Origin: Kiritimatiellia bacterium
Lineage (GTDB): Bacteria > Verrucomicrobiota > Kiritimatiellia > RFP12 > UBA1067
Direction: 5' to 3'
Assembly: GCA_017450695.1 (NCBI GenBank)
Contig: JAFSTA010000277.1
Location: 1 to 32,803, forward strand
Length of the DNA stretch: 32,803 bases
A program made the position numbers and the translations under genes. This document shows positions 5,830-19,763 of this stretch, in pieces; position 1 is the stretch's first letter, and each line of letters begins with the position of its first letter. The notes under the pieces were generated by a model. It was not told the DNA's origin, did no database searches, and worked only from the letters and a program-made list of their open reading frames with translations.

Positions 5830-8800
5830 TTAGCGGATGAGGATAATGGTTCCTCCGTACGTGAGCCTGAAGGTCAGGGTTCCGTCTTGCGCAATCAAAA
5901 CGGCGTCGATAGGTGTATTTGCCGGAAGTCCTGTGTTGACGACGGAACATTTGACATTCGTCCGCGAGGCGCTGCCCGTGTACTGGGCGAGCGTGGTGGA
6001 GTAGGGGACGGAAACGGGATTGTTGGCATCCCTTCCGAGATCCACGATGAGGTTGTTGTCCAGCGCAAGATTGCCTGTCACGGCAAGGCGGTTGTTGCCA
6101 TTTGCCGTGGATTTAATAACGAAGGTCATGCCGGATGGCAGCTCAAGATCCGCTTGTACCGCCAGTTGCGCGGGCGCCGTGTTCGTCGATGCGTCCAGCC
6201 GTCCGGTCACGCGCAACGTCCCGTTGGAGGCAAGACCGGGACCCGTGAAGTCACCGACAACCGTTGTTCCACCGTTCAAGTCATAGGTTGCACCTTGCGC
6301 AAGGAAGAGCGCGTTGGTCACGCCGAGGAAGCCCTTGAGCGTGCCACCCTCTACGCGAACCGGTCCGCGGTAGGTGGAGTTCATCGCAGTGATGTTCAAT
6401 GTGTTTGTTCCGAGTTTGGTCAGACCGCCGTCATTCTCCTCGCCGGCAAGGAGTGCCTGGGAGATCGTGTAGTCGAAGTTCCTCGTGTCGATACAGGCAC
6501 CTCCTGCCATGACTTTGGCGGCAGTCAAGTTGTTCAGCTGGTTGTTGTTTTTCGGGATCAAGGTCGAACCGTTGAAATGGAGTTCCCGAACCGGTCCCGA
6601 ATTTCCTCCGAAAATTCGGGTGGCGGACACGGTGCCGCCATTCAGAATCAAGGTGCCGCTTCCGTTACGCCCGATTTCAACCGTGTCGAAGTCGCAAGTT
6701 CCGCCGTTGATCGTGACGGTTCCTACGCTCCCCGCGTACTCACCGATAACCAGCGGGCAGGTGAGGGTGCCGCTGTTGACCGTGACATACGGGTGGGCGT
6801 TGTATCCCGATAGCCAGTAGCTCGTATTGAGTCCGAGGCTGACCGTGCCGAGTTCGGCATGTCCACCGTCAATGATCAGACCGGAACGTGCGCCTTGCGG
6901 TGCCGTGGTGGTCGTGCCGTTGTTCCAGCCGATGCCGCACGTGTTGAGGGAAATCAACCTGCCGCGTTTGAGAACCAGCGTACCTTCCGTTTCCGTTCCC
7001 GATTCCGTTGTGTTCAAACCGATCAGGAGGCGTCCTGACTTGACGCGCAGGGTTGTATTGTCGTTTGCAAGATTCAACTCCAGAATGCCGTCGGCAACAT
7101 TGACTGCGTCAAATCCGTTGGTCGGTGTCGCGTCTGGAGAAAACACCACCCTTTTGACCGTGGAGAGGTCTGCTGAATGGCTCGCCAGGATGTTGGTTTT
7201 CGATCCGGTCTGGGTAAGGGTAAGTTTGCCCGGTCCGGTCTTGATTAACGCCCCGCGATTCTCTACGGTCGCCAGGTTGATCGTGGCATTTCCGTCGGTC
7301 TGGATGACCACGGACTGCCCCTTGGCGTTTGGCGTGTAGAACTGGAACGGGGGAAGCAGCGAGACATCCTCACCGGTGATGTGAAACGTCCCTAGCTCCA
7401 TCTTCAGCGAGGTGGAGGAGTTGAAGGCATCGGCGGAAGCGATTTCCAAGGTGCCGCCGCCCCGGATTGTCGTTGTACCGGTGTAGGTGTTGTTCCCAGT
7501 CAGGGAGATCGTGCCCGCGCCGACTTTCTGCAAGTCGCCCGTGCCGGAGATGGTTCCCGAAAGGGTTTTCCTCGTACCCTGCGGCGCGGTCAAGGCGTTG
7601 TTTCCTGTCAACTCAATCGGAGCGGCTGTATCTGCCGTGAAGCGAAGTGTCCCGTTTCTTCCCATCAGCCTGAGTGCAAAACCGTTCGCCTGAACCGTAC
7701 CGAGATCCAGCGAGGTGCCGCCACCCAGATAAAGTTCGGCTGGCGTGTTCAACGTGAGCGGCGCTGTGATGGCATGGCTTCCGGTTTCGGTCGAAATCAC
7801 GGCCGGATCGGTTCCGGTTAGCGTAAGTCCCGAGCCATCGAGCGTGTAGCTGGAGGCATTGTTGAAATAGAGTCCGCTGCTGCTTTCACCCGCCGTGTGA
7901 ACGGTTCGCGCGGCGGTAATCGCATCGTCGAAACGTACCGCGTCGCCCGCGTTGGGCGCGATGGTCCAGTTGGCGGCTGTTGCCCAGTTCCCGTCCGCAT
8001 CAACATTCCACACGGAAACGCCCGCGCCGCCGTTGGCGATGGTGAGCGTCACCCATCCGTCAGCCGCCGCGAAAACATACGATTTACCGGCGACGGGCGC
8101 GATGACCGAGAGTCCGCTCACATCCGGCGCAGTCCCCGTGTAGTTGATCAGGCGGTACGTGCCGTTGACGGAAACGGTGTCCTCGGAGTCGTCGCGGCGC
8201 AAACGGATTTTCGCTCCGTTCTCGAAGACGGGCGTACCCGTGACGGCTACTGTGTCGTTTCCTCCGCCCGAGACGCAGAGGCTCAGGATTCCGTTTGCGC
8301 GGAGGGTGAGGGACTGGACGGAAAGGGAACGTTGCGAAGCGGTTGAAGATGCCGCCTGAAGGGAAACTTCAGAATCTGCCAAGATTTCCAATCCCGTTCC
8401 CGGTAACGAGGTTTCCGCCGTGATACGAAGGAGACCTGCCGCCGCGACCGCCGGACCGTTCCAGTCGTTACCCGTGGAGGCGAGCGTGAGCGTGTTGGTT
8501 CCCGTCTTGCGGAATCCGCCGTCCGGCGAGGCTGCGGAGGTCAACGCTTTCGCGAGCGTCCAACTGGAGACGTCGGCACGGAAGACCGCGCCGTCCCCCA
8601 ACACATCGATGCGCGTGAGACTACTCACCGTGTTGTTGCCCGTCAGCTCCAGTTCGCCACCGTTGCAACGCACAATGCCCTGTCCGGTCAGCGTCGAGTT
8701 ATTTCCGGAACAGAAGAGTTTCGGAGTCCGGAAAAGACCGCCGTTCAGTTCGAGCGTGGCGACACCGCCGGATGCTTTTCCAAGCATCGTCTGCGTGGCG

Positions 8801-11626: not shown

Positions 11627-12124
11627 ATGAAAATCGCAACAGTTCTCGTGCTTCTTTCAAGTTTCATCGTGGGCGGGTGTATTCTTCCTGTCCCTGTTTA
11701 TTACATGCACGGACCGGAGGTCACGGGTACTGTCATTGATGACAGAACGGGGCAACCGATCGAAGGGGCCCACATCTTGATTCGTTCCTTTGCGGAAAAC
11801 TGTGCGGATCGTACGGCGACCACGGCGGCTAACGGTTCGTTCCGTGTTCCTGAAAGCGGGGATATTCATTTCGGGTTCTGGATTGCACCGCCTACAGCCG
11901 GCACCTTGATTCCTTGTGATTTATTATCTGATGGCGTTGGTATTACTCGTCATTGGTATTATGTTTCCATTGAGAAGATAGGGTATAAGTGGGGGATTTT
12001 CAGAGTTCCCGGCCGTGCAGACAGCGAGGTTGTTTATACACCGCCTCTGCCGACGGACGGTATCTACCGTCTCCGCCCGTTGTCGGACACGGAACGCGTC
12101 TTGGATGATGGCATGTCACGATAA
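11627..12124 (+). CDS. Lipoprotein with a carboxypeptidase-regulatory-like domain
   Basis: The 165-residue protein begins with a lipoprotein signal, MKIATVLVLLSSFIVGGC, with the lipid-modified cysteine at position 18. It then has a beta-sandwich of the carboxypeptidase-regulatory-like type, shown by VTGTVIDDRTGQPIEGAHI and later ANGSFRVPES. Such domains are found on many surface lipoproteins and are thought to be structural. ATG 11627 is chosen over ATG 11621 and over the longer frame because GGAG at 11616-11619 gives seven-base spacing. It stands divergently from the giant secreted protein. The lgt gene in this window encodes the enzyme that would lipidate it. No specific function can be named. 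Confidence 0.75.
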   Translation: MKIATVLVLLSSFIVGGCILPVPVYYMHGPEVTGTVIDDRTGQPIEGAHILIRSFAENCADRTATTAANGSFRVPESGDIHFGFWIAPPTAGTLIPCDLLSDGVGITRHWYYVSIEKIGYKWGIFRVPGRADSEVVYTPPLPTDGIYRLRPLSDTERVLDDGMSR

Positions 12125-12559: not shown

Positions 12560-13698
12560 ATGTGAACGAGATGAAGTTTATCGACGTGTTGCGGGAATGG
12601 CCCTCCGCCCGTGTGCAGGGGCTGATCCGTTCCGCTACCGCGTCGGATGTGGAGACGGCGTTGGCGGCATCCGCGGACAAGGGCTGCTACGATCCAGAGC
12701 ATCTGGCCGCGCTTCTTTCCCCGGCTGCCGAACCGATGCTGGAGTCGATGGCTCAGCTCTCCGCGCATTGGACGCGCCAGCGTTTCGGGCGCGCGATCGA
12801 TTTCTTCGCGCCGCTGTATTGCTCGAACATTTGCTGCAACGGGTGCCGGTACTGCGGGTTCAATACTTCGATTCAGGGAACCGTGCGTTGCGCATTGACG
12901 GTGGATCAGGCGGAAACGGAAGCCCTGTGCTTGGCGCAAAAGGGATTCGGCCATATTCTCCTGGTAGGAGGGGAAGACTGGAAGAACACGCCGCCAGCCT
13001 ACTATGCGGAGTTGACGCGTCGCATCCGTTCCCGTTTCGCTTCCGTGAACATCGAGATCTATGCGGTCTCGCTCGACGAGTACAGGATGCTTCACGAGGC
13101 GGGGGTCGATGGCATGACCATGTTTCAGGAGACGTACAATCCAGAGGTGTATAAGCGGTATCATCCCTATGGCCCCAAGTCGAACTTTGAGAATCGGATT
13201 GACGCCTTTGAGCGCGCCTCGCGGGCAGGGATGGAGTTCATCGGATTGGGGGCGTTGCTGGGAATCAACGACTGGCGCGAGGAGGGGTTCTATCTCGGCT
13301 TGCATGCGGATTACCTGCAACGGCGGTATTGGCGGGATTCCGTCGCGATTTCCTTCCCGCGTATGCGTCATGCGAAGGGCGGAACGCCGCCGGAGTTCCC
13401 GGTCTCCGACGCGAACCTCGTTCAGCTGATGTGCGCGTTGCGTTGCGAGTTCCCCGATGTCACCATGACGCTTTCCACACGCGAGCTTCCGGGATTCCGC
13501 GAGGAGCTGGTCAAGCTCGCCGTGACAAAGATTTCCGCCGAGTCGAAAACCAATCCCGGCGGGTATTCCCACGAGAATGACGACACGCCACAGTTTGAGA
13601 TCGCCGATGCGCGGACGTTGCCCGAGGTGGCGGCAGCCTTGCGCACGCTGGACTTTGATCCCGTGATGAAAAACTGGGACGCCTCGCTGGTCAGTTGA
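12556..13698 (+). CDS. thiH: 2-iminoacetate synthase-like radical SAM enzyme
   Basis: The 380-residue protein is of the ThiH family, which cleaves tyrosine to 2-iminoacetate and p-cresol for the thiazole ring of thiamine. The radical SAM cluster motif is C93-x3-C97-x2-C100 within YCSNICCNGCRYCGF. Further family blocks are GFGHILLVGGEDW, MFQETYNPEVY, GLGALLGINDWREEG and the C-terminal NPGGY and DDTPQFEI. No thiG, thiS, thiF or thiC is adjacent and no TPP riboswitch is seen, so its pathway context is not shown here; a related radical SAM activity cannot be excluded. It overlaps the zinc-ribbon gene upstream and is followed 20 nt later by the SpoU gene. Confidence 0.88.
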   Translation: MNVNEMKFIDVLREWPSARVQGLIRSATASDVETALAASADKGCYDPEHLAALLSPAAEPMLESMAQLSAHWTRQRFGRAIDFFAPLYCSNICCNGCRYCGFNTSIQGTVRCALTVDQAETEALCLAQKGFGHILLVGGEDWKNTPPAYYAELTRRIRSRFASVNIEIYAVSLDEYRMLHEAGVDGMTMFQETYNPEVYKRYHPYGPKSNFENRIDAFERASRAGMEFIGLGALLGINDWREEGFYLGLHADYLQRRYWRDSVAISFPRMRHAKGGTPPEFPVSDANLVQLMCALRCEFPDVTMTLSTRELPGFREELVKLAVTKISAESKTNPGGYSHENDDTPQFEIADARTLPEVAAALRTLDFDPVMKNWDASLVS

Positions 13699-13718
13699 CC
13701 GTTCCCGCAGGAGACGCG

Positions 13719-14552
13719 ATGACGAAAGAACAGGTGTGGAAACAGGCGTGGGAACGGGTTCGGGCAATCGACGCCGCACTGGAGTCCGGGCGCGACGTTT
13801 CCCGTGAGCTGACGGCGGTGGCAACTTGGTTTCGTGAACAGCGCGATCAACCGCGCCTCGTCTCGCTGGCGAATCTGCTGACGTCGCCGTTGACCCGGCG
13901 GCAACTCTGGTGTGTGCTGGTCCCCCTGGAACGCGAGATCGCTCGCCTGAAAATCACGGACGTGGAAATCCTGGAGGGGGATCGTCCCGCTCCTGTTGCC
14001 GACGCCTCATCCCGCATGGCGGTTACCGTGGTTCTCGATTCGATCCGTTCCGCATTCAACGTGGGCGGAATCTTTCGGACGGCGGAGTGCTTCGGTGTGG
14101 AGCGTCTGGTGTTGTGCGGATACACGGCGACTCCGGAAGATCCGGCAATCGTCCGATCCGCTCTGGGTACCGAACGCCTGGTGGAATGGCAAGCCGAGGC
14201 GGATATCCAAACCGCGATTTCCCGTTTGCGGGAAACGGGGATTGCCTGCTATGCGCTGGAAACGGTTTCGGGCGCGGAGGAGATCGGGCGCGTGCAGTGG
14301 CGGTTTCCGCTGGCTCTGGTTGTAGGGAACGAGCGTTTCGGAATCACGCACTCCGTGTTGTCGCTCTGCGATGGAATCGTGCGGATTCCCCTGTACGGTT
14401 GCAAGAACTCGCTCAATGTCGTCACCTCCTTCGCCATCGCTGCACACACCCTCCGTCGCGCGTGGGGGGCGGGCGCTTTGCGCCAGCGGGGGCGGCTAAC
14501 GCCGCCAGCTGAGAGGCTGAGAAGCGGGGAAGCTGAGAGGCTGAGAAGCTGA
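13719..14552 (+). CDS. SpoU (TrmH) family RNA 2'-O-ribose methyltransferase
   Basis: The 277-residue protein should transfer a methyl group from SAM to a ribose 2'-OH of tRNA or rRNA. The three SpoU motifs are clear: SAFNVGGIFRTAE (111-123), LALVVGNERFGI (198-209) and IPLYGCKNSLNVVTSFAIA (223-241), which form the trefoil-knot SAM site. The N-terminal 95 residues are a helical extension. ATG 13719 has GGAG seven bases upstream. The target nucleotide cannot be inferred. The family fold ends at about residue 250; the remaining tail, including the doubled ERLRS, is encoded by intergenic hairpins and tandem GAGAGGCTGAG words (14472-14552), and the stop codon itself is one of those repeats. The tail is probably a late addition. 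Confidence 0.9.
   Translation: MTKEQVWKQAWERVRAIDAALESGRDVSRELTAVATWFREQRDQPRLVSLANLLTSPLTRRQLWCVLVPLEREIARLKITDVEILEGDRPAPVADASSRMAVTVVLDSIRSAFNVGGIFRTAECFGVERLVLCGYTATPEDPAIVRSALGTERLVEWQAEADIQTAISRLRETGIACYALETVSGAEEIGRVQWRFPLALVVGNERFGITHSVLSLCDGIVRIPLYGCKNSLNVVTSFAIAAHTLRRAWGAGALRQRGRLTPPAERLRSGEAERLRS
14472..14506. repeat. Two short hairpins within the 3' end of the SpoU gene
   Basis: GGCGC-TTT-GCGCC (14472-14484) and GGCGGC-TAAC-GCCGCC (14491-14506) are perfect hairpins inside the last codons of the SpoU gene. They lead into the tandem repeat at 14507-14546 and the hairpin array at 14561-14622. Confidence 0.6.
14507..14546 (+). repeat. Tandem repeat of AGCTGAGAGGCTGAG words
   Basis: The 15-mer AGCTGAGAGGCTGAG occurs at 14507-14521 and 14531-14545, with a partial third copy AGCTGAGAGGC just after. 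A third perfect copy lies 15.7 kb away at 30272-30286. The array overlaps the end of the SpoU gene and carries its TGA stop at 14550-14552. Confidence 0.75.
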
Positions 14553-14560
14553 GAGGCAGG

Positions 14561-14622
14561 TAAGTGGCGGCTGCGCCGCCTAAGTGGCCCTGCGGGCCTA
14601 AGTGGGGCTGGAGCCCCTAAGT
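14561..14622 (+). repeat. Tandem array of covarying hairpins separated by TAAGT
   Basis: Three successive units each consist of TAAGT and a perfect hairpin: GGCGGC-TGC-GCCGCC (14566-14580), GGCCC-TGC-GGGCC (14586-14598) and GGGGC-TGGA-GCCCC (14604-14617). A fourth TAAGT follows at 14618-14622. The spacer is constant and the stem sequence differs from unit to unit, yet each stem is perfectly self-complementary. It lies between the convergent SpoU and uvrB genes. Confidence 0.75.
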
Positions 14623-14654
14623 GGACTTGGCGAGAGGCGTGGCCGCGTTCGGTT

Positions 14655-14674
14655 GTGCGGCATATTTGCCGCAC
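14655..14674 (-). repeat. Hairpin repeat, GCGGCA-N4-TGCCGC family, downstream of uvrB
   Basis: The arms GTGCGGCA and TGCCGCAC pair perfectly around four bases. In uvrB orientation it begins 18 nt after the stop and is preceded by GGCTCGTCTTG. An 18-nt stretch GTTCGGTTGTGCGGCATA (14647-14664) is identical to 19667-19684. No T-tract follows, so this is not a standard terminator, although the position fits a 3'-end role. Confidence 0.7.
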
Positions 14675-14691
14675 CCCAAGACGAGCCCCCG

Positions 14692-16746
14692 TTATCCCCG
14701 CCGTTTCTTCTTCATGCGCGGGTAGGGGGTAGGGCGCTTGGCGTCGCTTGCAGCGGGGGCGGATGGGGCGTCGAGCAGTGCTTTGAGCTGCTTGATTTCG
14801 TCGCGGAGCATGGCCGCGCGCTCGAATTCCAATTCCTGCGCGGCTTCAAGCATTTCCTTCTCCAGGTCCGCGATTGTGCGGTGGATGTCGTACGCCTCGT
14901 GCGACTCGGCGGCGACCATCTTTTCCTCCACCTGGATCGCGTCCAGATCCAGCGCGTCCTTCTCGTTCAGGGAACGTTTCACGCTCTGCGGTGTGATGTG
15001 GTGTTCGAGGTTGAACGCGAGTTGTTTTTCGCGCCGGTGCGCCGTGATCTCGATCATCTGCTTCATCGCGTCCGTCTCGTGGTCGGCATAGAGGATGACG
15101 CGTCCCTTGACATGGCGGGCGGCGCGTCCCGCCGTCTGCATCAGCGAGGTGGTCGATCGCAGGAAGCCCTCCTTGTCTGCGTCCAGCACGGCGACCAGCG
15201 CGACCTCGGGCAGATCCAGCCCTTCGCGCAGCAGGTTGATGCCGATCAGGCAATCGAAGTCCCCCTTGCGCAGACGCGCGAGGATATCGACACGGTCGAA
15301 CGCCTTGATGTCGCTGTGCAGGTATTCCACACGGATTCCCGTTTCGTGGAGATACGCCGTCAGGTCTTCCGCGGAACGCTTTGTCAGGGTCGTGACCAGT
15401 ACCCGCTCCTTCTTTTCGGCGCAGGCGCGGATCTCCTCCATCAGGTCGTCGATCTGGTTTTTGAGCGGACGGACTTCCACCGGCGGATCGAGCAGTCCTG
15501 TCGGGCGGATCACCTGTTCCGTCGTCAGTTCGCTGACTTGTTTCTCGAAGACGCCGGGGGTCGCGCTGGTAAAGACGATGGGACCGACCTTCTCCATAAA
15601 CTCGTCAAAGGTGAGCGGGCGATTGTCCTTTGCCGACGGGAGGCGGAACCCGTTATCCACCAAGGTCGTCTTGCGCGCGCGGTCGCCGTTGAACATGGCG
15701 CGGAGTTGCGGAATGCTCACGTGCGACTCGTCGATGAACGTGACGAAATCATCGGGGAAATAATCCAGCAGACAGGCGGGCGGACTCCCTTCCGGACGCC
15801 CTTCCAGCGGGCGCGAATAGTTCTCGATCCCGTTGCAGTAACCGAGTTGCTGCAGCATTTCGAGGTCGAACTCCGTCCGCTGGCGAAGGCGTTGCGCCTC
15901 CAGCAGTTTGCCCTTGCTCTCGAAGAACGCCAGCCGCTCAGACAATTCCGATTCGATCCGCTGGATGGCGGCGGCCATGCGGTCTTGCGGCATCACGAAA
16001 GGTTTCGCGGGGGAGAAGACAACTTGCTCCATCGTCTTCGAGGTGCGCCCCGTCACCGTTTCGAGACGGCGGATCGAATCCACCTCATCCCCGAAGAACT
16101 CGATCCGGTAGCCGTTGGTCTCATACGCGGGGATCACATCGACCGTATCCCCGCGTACCCGAAAGGTGCCCGGCTTCAGCTCGTAATCGTTGCGGGAGAA
16201 CTGGATTTCGATGAGGCGCTGCAGGAGGGCATCGCGGCCGAACTCCTCGCCCTGCTTCACGATCACCAGCATGTTTCGGAAGTCCTGCGGTTCACCCAGG
16301 CCGTAGATGCACGAGACGCTGGCGACGACAATGACGTCGCGGCGGCTGACCAACGCGTCGATCGCGCCGAGACGGTAGCGTTCGATTTCCTCGTTGATGG
16401 AAGCGTCCTTCTCGATGTAGGTGTCGGTCTGGGGAATGTACGCCTCCGGCTGGTAGTAGTCGTAATAGCTGATGAAGTACTCGACCGCGTTCTCGGGGAA
16501 GAAGGTTTTGAACTCGGCGAAGAGTTGCGCGGCGAGGGTCTTGTTGTGCGAGATGACGAGCGTCGGGCGGTTCACCTGCTGGATCACGTTCGCCATGGTG
16601 AAGGTCTTTCCGGAGCCGGTGACGCCTTCCAGAATCAGCCGGTCTTTCCCCGAACGCAATCCGCCAACCAGGTCGCGAATCGCTTCTGGCTGATCGCCCG
16701 TCGGGCTAAAATCGGATTTCAGCTGGAAAAGGGAATCAGCGGACAT
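14692..16746 (-). CDS. uvrB: Excinuclease ABC subunit B
   Basis: UvrB is the damage-verifying helicase-like subunit of nucleotide excision repair. The 684-residue length is typical. It has the Walker A motif GVTGSGKT (41-48), the damage-probing beta-hairpin region YYDYYQPEAYIPQTDTYIEK (94-113), the DESHVSIPQL Walker B block, helicase motifs including the AGRAAR block, and a C-terminal UVR domain ending with EFERAAMLRDEIKQLKALL that contacts UvrC. The start overlaps the end of lgt by eleven bases, so it is the last gene of the tpiA-lpxK-lgt-uvrB operon. The other uvr genes are not in the window. Confidence 0.96.
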   Translation of the reverse strand: MSADSLFQLKSDFSPTGDQPEAIRDLVGGLRSGKDRLILEGVTGSGKTFTMANVIQQVNRPTLVISHNKTLAAQLFAEFKTFFPENAVEYFISYYDYYQPEAYIPQTDTYIEKDASINEEIERYRLGAIDALVSRRDVIVVASVSCIYGLGEPQDFRNMLVIVKQGEEFGRDALLQRLIEIQFSRNDYELKPGTFRVRGDTVDVIPAYETNGYRIEFFGDEVDSIRRLETVTGRTSKTMEQVVFSPAKPFVMPQDRMAAAIQRIESELSERLAFFESKGKLLEAQRLRQRTEFDLEMLQQLGYCNGIENYSRPLEGRPEGSPPACLLDYFPDDFVTFIDESHVSIPQLRAMFNGDRARKTTLVDNGFRLPSAKDNRPLTFDEFMEKVGPIVFTSATPGVFEKQVSELTTEQVIRPTGLLDPPVEVRPLKNQIDDLMEEIRACAEKKERVLVTTLTKRSAEDLTAYLHETGIRVEYLHSDIKAFDRVDILARLRKGDFDCLIGINLLREGLDLPEVALVAVLDADKEGFLRSTTSLMQTAGRAARHVKGRVILYADHETDAMKQMIEITAHRREKQLAFNLEHHITPQSVKRSLNEKDALDLDAIQVEEKMVAAESHEAYDIHRTIADLEKEMLEAAQELEFERAAMLRDEIKQLKALLDAPSAPAASDAKRPTPYPRMKKKRRG

Positions 16747-19696: not shown

Positions 19697-19710
19697 CAAG
19701 ACACGCGAGC

Positions 19711-19763
19711 CTACCAGCCACCAGCTACCCGCTACCAGCCACTAGCCACTAGCTACCCGCTAC
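19711..19763 (-). repeat. Tandem words related to TAGCGGGTAGCTGGTGGCT
   Basis: On the minus strand, directly after the TGA at 19764, the sequence is a run of short related words such as TAGCGGGTAGC, TAGTGGC and TGGTGGC. The 18-mer AGCCACCAGCTACCCGCT (plus strand, 19716-19733) is identical to 24044-24061, which also follows a minus-strand stop codon. Confidence 0.7.

Follow-up and report, generated by a model that had tools for sequence, protein, structure and literature searches.

TAAGT-tagged hairpin arrays in Kiritimatiellae: a probable REP- and RPE-like family of palindromic repeats

Our analysis shows that the hairpin array in the window, by which we mean the whole analysed stretch of 32,803 nucleotides from a Kiritimatiellia bacterium (contig C191 of a 5.03-Mb, 287-contig assembly, here G000), is one copy of a dispersed palindromic element, about 80-95 bp long, that is non-coding and made up of several hairpins. 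We consider it likely that this element belongs to a family of TAAGT-tagged, REP- and RPE-like palindromic repeats of Kiritimatiellae, whose whole units move as modules and which spread at the DNA level. Across genomes the 5-bp stems vary widely; tag, loop and pairing persist.

Direct reading of the sequence confirmed the first-pass annotation in that TAAGT plus a hairpin occurs three times at 14561-14622, every stem being perfect, and is followed by a fourth TAAGT. The element extends beyond these coordinates and also comprises a leader at 14507-14560 and a decayed inverted unit reaching to about 14639. Its parts are the following.

14507..14560, plus strand: leader, a degenerate (A/G)GCTGAGA octamer repeat, purine-rich on the plus strand (Tandem Repeats Finder)
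14561..14565, plus strand: TAAGT tag or spacer 1 (sequence)
14566..14580, plus strand: hairpin A, GGCGGC-TGC-GCCGCC, perfect 6-bp stem, equal to the family consensus (45 aligned copies)
14581..14585, plus strand: TAAGT tag or spacer 2 (sequence)
14586..14598, plus strand: hairpin B, GGCCC-TGC-GGGCC, perfect 5-bp stem, equal to the family consensus (aligned copies)
14599..14603, plus strand: tag or spacer 3, TAAGT in the window and TAAAT in most copies (aligned copies)
14604..14617, plus strand: hairpin C, GGGGC-TGGA-GCCCC, perfect 5-bp stem (aligned copies)
14618..14622, plus strand: TAAGT tag or spacer 4 (right-flank consensus)
14625..14639, minus strand: decayed inverted unit ACTTG-GCGAGAGGCG (right-flank consensus, 45 copies)

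The downstream end of the leader (consensus about ..AGAAGCGGGGAGGCAGA) stands before most element copies, as read from the left-flank consensus of 45 copies. The loop of hairpin C, TGGA in the window, is TGGC or TGGT in most 14-nt copies. Tag 4 forms the left half of a TAAGT-TG-ACTTA turn-around, the window version of which reads TAAGT-GG-ACTTG, and the inverted unit behind it is ACTTA-GCCGC-GAA-GCGGC in better preserved copies. The array is placed between the gene of a SpoU-type RNA methylase (ORF 13695-14552; PF00588) and an ORF on the minus strand (14692-16746) which we take, by homology, to be uvrB; the window copy is flanked by two convergent gene ends. The 3' end of the SpoU-type ORF enters the octamer leader, so that the final codons and the stop come from the repeat. 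Between the array and uvrB, at 14655-14674, lies a separate hairpin with a perfect 8-bp stem, GTGCGGCA-TATT-TGCCGCAC, which has no T run. Further downstream, at 19708-19763, the window contains a CTACCAGCCACCAGC-type tandem repeat whose period is 7 nt; G000 has several simple repeat families, of which this is one.

In G000 we could align at least 45 copies of a single composite element. Their consensus has a purine-rich leader, continues as TAAGT-A-TAAGT-B-TAAAT-C-TAAGT and often goes on to TG-ACTTA plus a fourth hairpin in inverted orientation, GCCGC.GAA.GCGGC. Hairpins A, B and C are distinct from one another, identically so in every copy; the tag is TAAGT or TAAAT in all 45 aligned copies except one starting TCAGT, and the left flanks of the copies turn unrelated within about 20 bp. 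What makes the stems of the window unlike one another is that each is a fixed part of its own within the element; they are not a duplicated unit that covaried, and in this respect the covarying stems of the first-pass annotation are not supported. Compensated double changes are few in the 45-copy family (hairpin A, one against 15 single changes; hairpin B, five against nine). Changes within the family are mostly ordinary decay, with some compensation in hairpin B that may reflect some selection or correction of pairing. Other element types with other stems are also present in G000, and arrays occur in both orientations.

Within the class, 13-nt units occur in ten of 346 genomes, namely G000, G001, five of genus g13, one of genus g6 and two of family f4. 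G001, of the same genus as the window's genome, has many; two further members of that genus, G002 and G003, have no 13-nt units. Other genomes have their own stem sets. The refuting conditions set in the first-pass annotation had a mixed outcome: the units did prove to be abundant in the rest of the genome, but G001, the nearest relative, holds no array at all at the orthologous site. The genes (UvrB 97% identical) and the octamer leader repeat are kept there. For nine G000 array positions both flanks were found in the fetched G001 stretches, and any array was present in G001 at one of the nine, in a non-random sample for which the G001 stretches had been picked as containing arrays. MITEs are marked by terminal inverted repeats and a target-site duplication. 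The ends of the present element are inverted (TAAGT ... ACTTA), but no exact empty site or target-site duplication is definable in the orthologous comparison of G000 and G001 because intergenic sequence turns over completely. Intergenic pairs of these sister species (L057/L212, L270/L223 and others) are almost wholly different mosaics of short repeat families, among them AATGAAAAATGAAGAATG, ACGCTTAACCGGC, GATAGCTGTCGATTGC and CGACATGCGACATG, between flanking genes that are about 80-90% identical. Arrays stand outside ORFs of at least 150 aa in 86 of 96 cases in G000, the ten exceptions depending on mechanical ORF calls, and in 72 of 72 cases in G001. In genus g13, 21 of 23 arrays lie inside such ORFs. 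Array and interval censuses cover the fetched stretches, and genome-wide counts come from pattern searches.

The first-pass annotation knew no named element with this organisation, yet REP and RPE repeats, which join a short tag to a short palindrome, are close (PMC3733652, PMC8266576, PMC2229807). Repeats tagged GTAG and CGTC are known across bacteria, including the verrucomicrobium Opitutus terrae; they show alternative complementary stem residues, and copies may be grouped or lie in frame within genes (PMC3733652). With REP and BIME repeats the present family shares a short palindrome that has a short, fixed tag at its foot, a high copy number, a mostly intergenic position and sub-families with alternative complementary stem residues; the repeats are in some cases grouped and in some cases intragenic (PMC3733652). 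One studied REPtron has perfect 5-bp palindromes close to its tag (PMC8266576). The high-copy, dispersed and mainly extragenic character of REPs is seen here in the intergenic proportions given above and in 128 genome-wide matches. In contrast to the GTAG class, the tag here is TAAGT or TAAAT, and TAAGT is also all that separates the units in tight head-to-tail runs, which reach 8 or more units; moreover, the family has neither a G-T pairing excess nor a bias to unidirectional or convergent gaps, and no RAYT locus bracketed by TAAGT repeats was seen.

RPE is the type case of coding palindromes (PMC2229807), being found between genes and in frame inside functional protein genes (PMC2229807, PMC3733652). 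In-frame copies of the present family occur in g13 and in G071 and G107 (NspC, FGGY kinase, a PFL-like enzyme and others), the window's genome lying outside that evidence. RPEs are 105-146 bp long, with long stem-loops, terminal inverted repeats and in some cases CGTC, whereas the family described here has many separate small hairpins per insert, no CGTC tag, another sequence and another lineage. It works like REP and RPE but has the tag of neither, and is therefore filed as a variant, a member of neither. PARCEL elements are likewise tandem palindromic repeats in reading frames with a patchy distribution across taxa (PMC2996958), but their repeat is of 75 nt and 25 residues, against 18 nt and 6 residues here, and in the window's genome the repeats are non-coding. 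In CRISPR arrays identical repeats alternate with varied spacers; here a constant short spacer alternates with varied palindromes. Mitochondrial double-hairpin elements and nematomorph coding palindromes are also mobile or dynamic hairpin DNA in which perfect pairing is kept while the sequence changes (PMC6649704). They are organellar, and are not known to have a TAAGT tag or regular 18-nt arrays. Matches in Schaalia and Pauljensenia (L040-L045) proved to be unrelated 20-nt tandem repeats without hairpins, of the TAAGTGGTGCGGGCAATGCC type and with inverted flanks on either side. The open-licence papers searched held none that joins Kiritimatiellae with such repeats, and the TAAGT-hairpin family is apparently undescribed.

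The elements would spread as selfish or neutral DNA, like REP and RPE, through a DNA-level process that would act on the tag and the hairpin shape and not on the stem sequence. The moving might be done by a single-strand nuclease of the Y1/HUH type, which is the most speculative step and a guess. Transposases of this type take single strands with a tag and a hairpin as substrate and cut them at CT or CA steps (PMC8266576), which makes them the obvious candidates; at every unit boundary the stem-closing C meets the T of TAAGT in a CT dinucleotide. That these repeats are REPs in the strict sense, which a RAYT (TnpA-REP) transposase of the same genomes would spread, we regard as possible but doubtful. 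A tag with a short perfect palindrome, the high copy number and the intergenic position would fit, and REP substrates are known to include perfect 5-bp palindromes close to a tag (PMC8266576). Carrier genomes do have Y1_Tnp genes, and one Y1_Tnp ORF of G001 (C262; L217 7735-8892) stops about 50 bp short of a two-way TAAGT array; G001 has dozens of arrays, however, so a single gene near one of them could be chance, and the G000 Y1_Tnp ORF has no array within the fetched 8.6 kb. The tag is TAAGT and not GTAG, and Y1_Tnp (PF01797) is present in 25 of 25 genomes tested, equally in those without arrays, which speaks against a specific RAYT link.

Movement of whole units is suggested by how the arrays change. 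Where several genomes or paralogs have arrays at one gene site, most of the difference between the arrays consists of entire 18-nt units that have been gained, lost or swapped. The EIE site, for example, reads GCGCC/GGCCC/GCTGC/GCCCC, GCGCC/GCCCC/GCTGC/GGTCC or GCCCC/GCTGC/GCGCC, and a long alternating GCCCC / GCCGC run in G107 stands at a place where G071 has one or two units. (A further palindrome, ATCTTCGGGCGAAACTAGTTTCGCCCGAAGAT, adjoins the in-gene array at the EIE site, in L099 near 12010-12036 and in L098 near 7780-7799.) On the small number of sites compared, a unit moving intact would give a simpler account of stems that vary and yet pair exactly than compensatory point mutation does. 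Arrays would then grow, shrink and exchange by whole tag-plus-hairpin units, each of which would stay self-complementary because it moves intact.

That self-complementarity is kept while stems differ, as the first-pass annotation had supposed, holds across genomes. Stem cells are Watson-Crick in 81% of cases in 140 distinct 13-nt intervals from four genome groups, unselected for pairing; the value falls to 52% (sd 1.4%, maximum 57%) when one arm is shuffled and to 34-39% when the partner arm is slid, the shuffle being a guide and not a probability, as the 140 intervals share descent in unknown ways. Among the 13-nt units there are 22 different perfect 5-bp stems, with loops that are mostly TTC, TGC or TAC. 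Perfect pairing with varied stems could also arise without any function or selection if a replication error, template switching, copied one stem arm onto the other, so that stems would drift and stay perfect. This process is documented to create and maintain hairpins (PMC8794818) and is proposed for coding palindromes (PMC6649704), and the few compensated changes in hairpin B noted above would suit it. We nevertheless think it an unlikely account, since it leaves the invariant tag, the at least 45 near-identical dispersed composites and the 18-nt whole-unit swaps unexplained, and single mismatches outnumber compensated changes in the aligned family. A more elaborate version of modular movement, also unlikely, is a hairpin cassette system in which a single-strand nuclease would recognise TAAGT plus any short hairpin, cut the CT at unit boundaries and rejoin units from a genomic pool, building arrays with freely differing, always perfect stems between genes and in frame within them.

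An RNA-level function appears improbable. The hairpins would in that case be terminators, 3'-end stabilisers or processing signals, with selection on RNA pairing keeping the stems; the position of the window copy between two convergent gene ends, the C-TTC-G loops of many relatives, which resemble stable RNA tetraloops, and a minus-strand fold better than shuffles (z -2.7) speak for it. Folding of the plus strand gives no improvement over shuffles (z -1.24). Selection on RNA pairing should leave more G-U wobbles than A-C mismatches on the transcribed strand, and this excess is absent: G-T to A-C mismatches stand at 23:21 in G000 and 24:20 in G001 overall, and G-U to A-C at 9:7 and 14:11 on the presumed transcript. 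There is no sense-strand bias in co-directional gaps (sense to antisense 17:15 in G000, 23:15 in G001) and no bias towards convergent genes (convergent to divergent 17:23 in G000, 13:9 in G001). At the window copy neither a terminator nor a promoter was detected, with no site of a G+C-rich hairpin followed by a T run in 14400-14800 and no promoter consensus, and a known RNA family was dismissed on finding no Rfam match in the window at gathering scores. The transcript-processing role put forward in the first-pass annotation thus lacks the G-U excess on either strand, the preference for 3' ends or the sense strand, and the terminator. A DNA-level repeat, probably selfish or neutral, is most likely, because there is no G-U excess, no orientation bias and no terminator.

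In some relatives, arrays inside enzyme genes appear to be translated as extra amino acids. The in-gene arrays of related genomes are in frame and proceed in 18-nt (6-codon) steps; 128 of 129 units of the g13 in-ORF arrays have a length divisible by 3, against 113 of 265 intergenic G000 units. The coding strand runs CTA AGT ... and then CTT AGN ..., and translates into LSGASP-LSGPSG..., LSREAT-LRGEAP-LRPEGP... and the like, the frame remaining open without stops for up to 17 tags. Host genes encode carboxynorspermidine decarboxylase (NspC), an FGGY sugar kinase, PFL-like glycyl-radical enzymes and a large protein with an FGE-sulfatase domain. In NspC and the FGGY kinase the insert sits in a loop of variable length among relatives, where array-less relatives carry nothing or a different simple repeat and the best PDB matches (9eaf, 5vm1) are without insert. 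An array occupies the FGGY site in G036 and G065 (g13) as well as in G071 and G107 of another family; in others the site is empty. The NspC genes of G067 and G041 (L283, L284) have other low-complexity inserts at the array loop (STPQRLNVSTPQHPNA..., KGERGKVKGEG...). By sequence, the NspC loop looks to be a repeat-tolerant site for several repeat families, and the arrays are probably translated as a flexible loop insert. Bypassing by the ribosome or removal from the RNA, as opposed to translation, is very unlikely: bypassed in-gene hairpin inserts do exist in yeast mitochondria (Magnusiomyces capitatus, cited in PMC6649704), but bypassing needs neither an open frame nor units divisible by 3.

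Chance hairpins in GC-rich DNA, which the short stems might suggest, can be practically dismissed on controls at or near zero: the 5.03-Mb genome contains TAAGT-GG-N5-G-N5-CC-TAAGT-GG 47 times and the reversed pattern 0 times, and TAAGTGG-N3..14-CCTAAGTGG 128 times against 0, while perfect hairpins make up 214 of 400 TAAGT/TAAAT-delimited intervals (9-20 nt; 911 kb of array-bearing stretches), one-mismatch hairpins 73 of the 400, and control tags yield perfect hairpins in 3 of 99 (reversed tag) and 0 of 14 intervals. On this point the first-pass annotation was right. Fully paired matches of the 13-nt pattern numbered 20/24, 50/85, 86/92 and 10/10 in four Kiritimatiellae sets. Viral contigs gave 46 matches of the bare pattern in 45 contigs, none of them fully paired, and a phage origin was discarded accordingly.

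REP and RPE repeats are usually sorted by their tag, GTAG or CGTC; TAAGT would be a third tag, in a family that belongs to a poorly studied class of gut bacteria. Stems that vary widely under a persistent tag, loop and pairing separate recognition of the tag from the stem sequence, and the mechanism of mobilisation can thereby be put to the test. Because the family lies between genes in one genus and in frame within enzymes in another, it also allows a natural comparison that bears on the adaptation of selfish palindromes to coding sequence.
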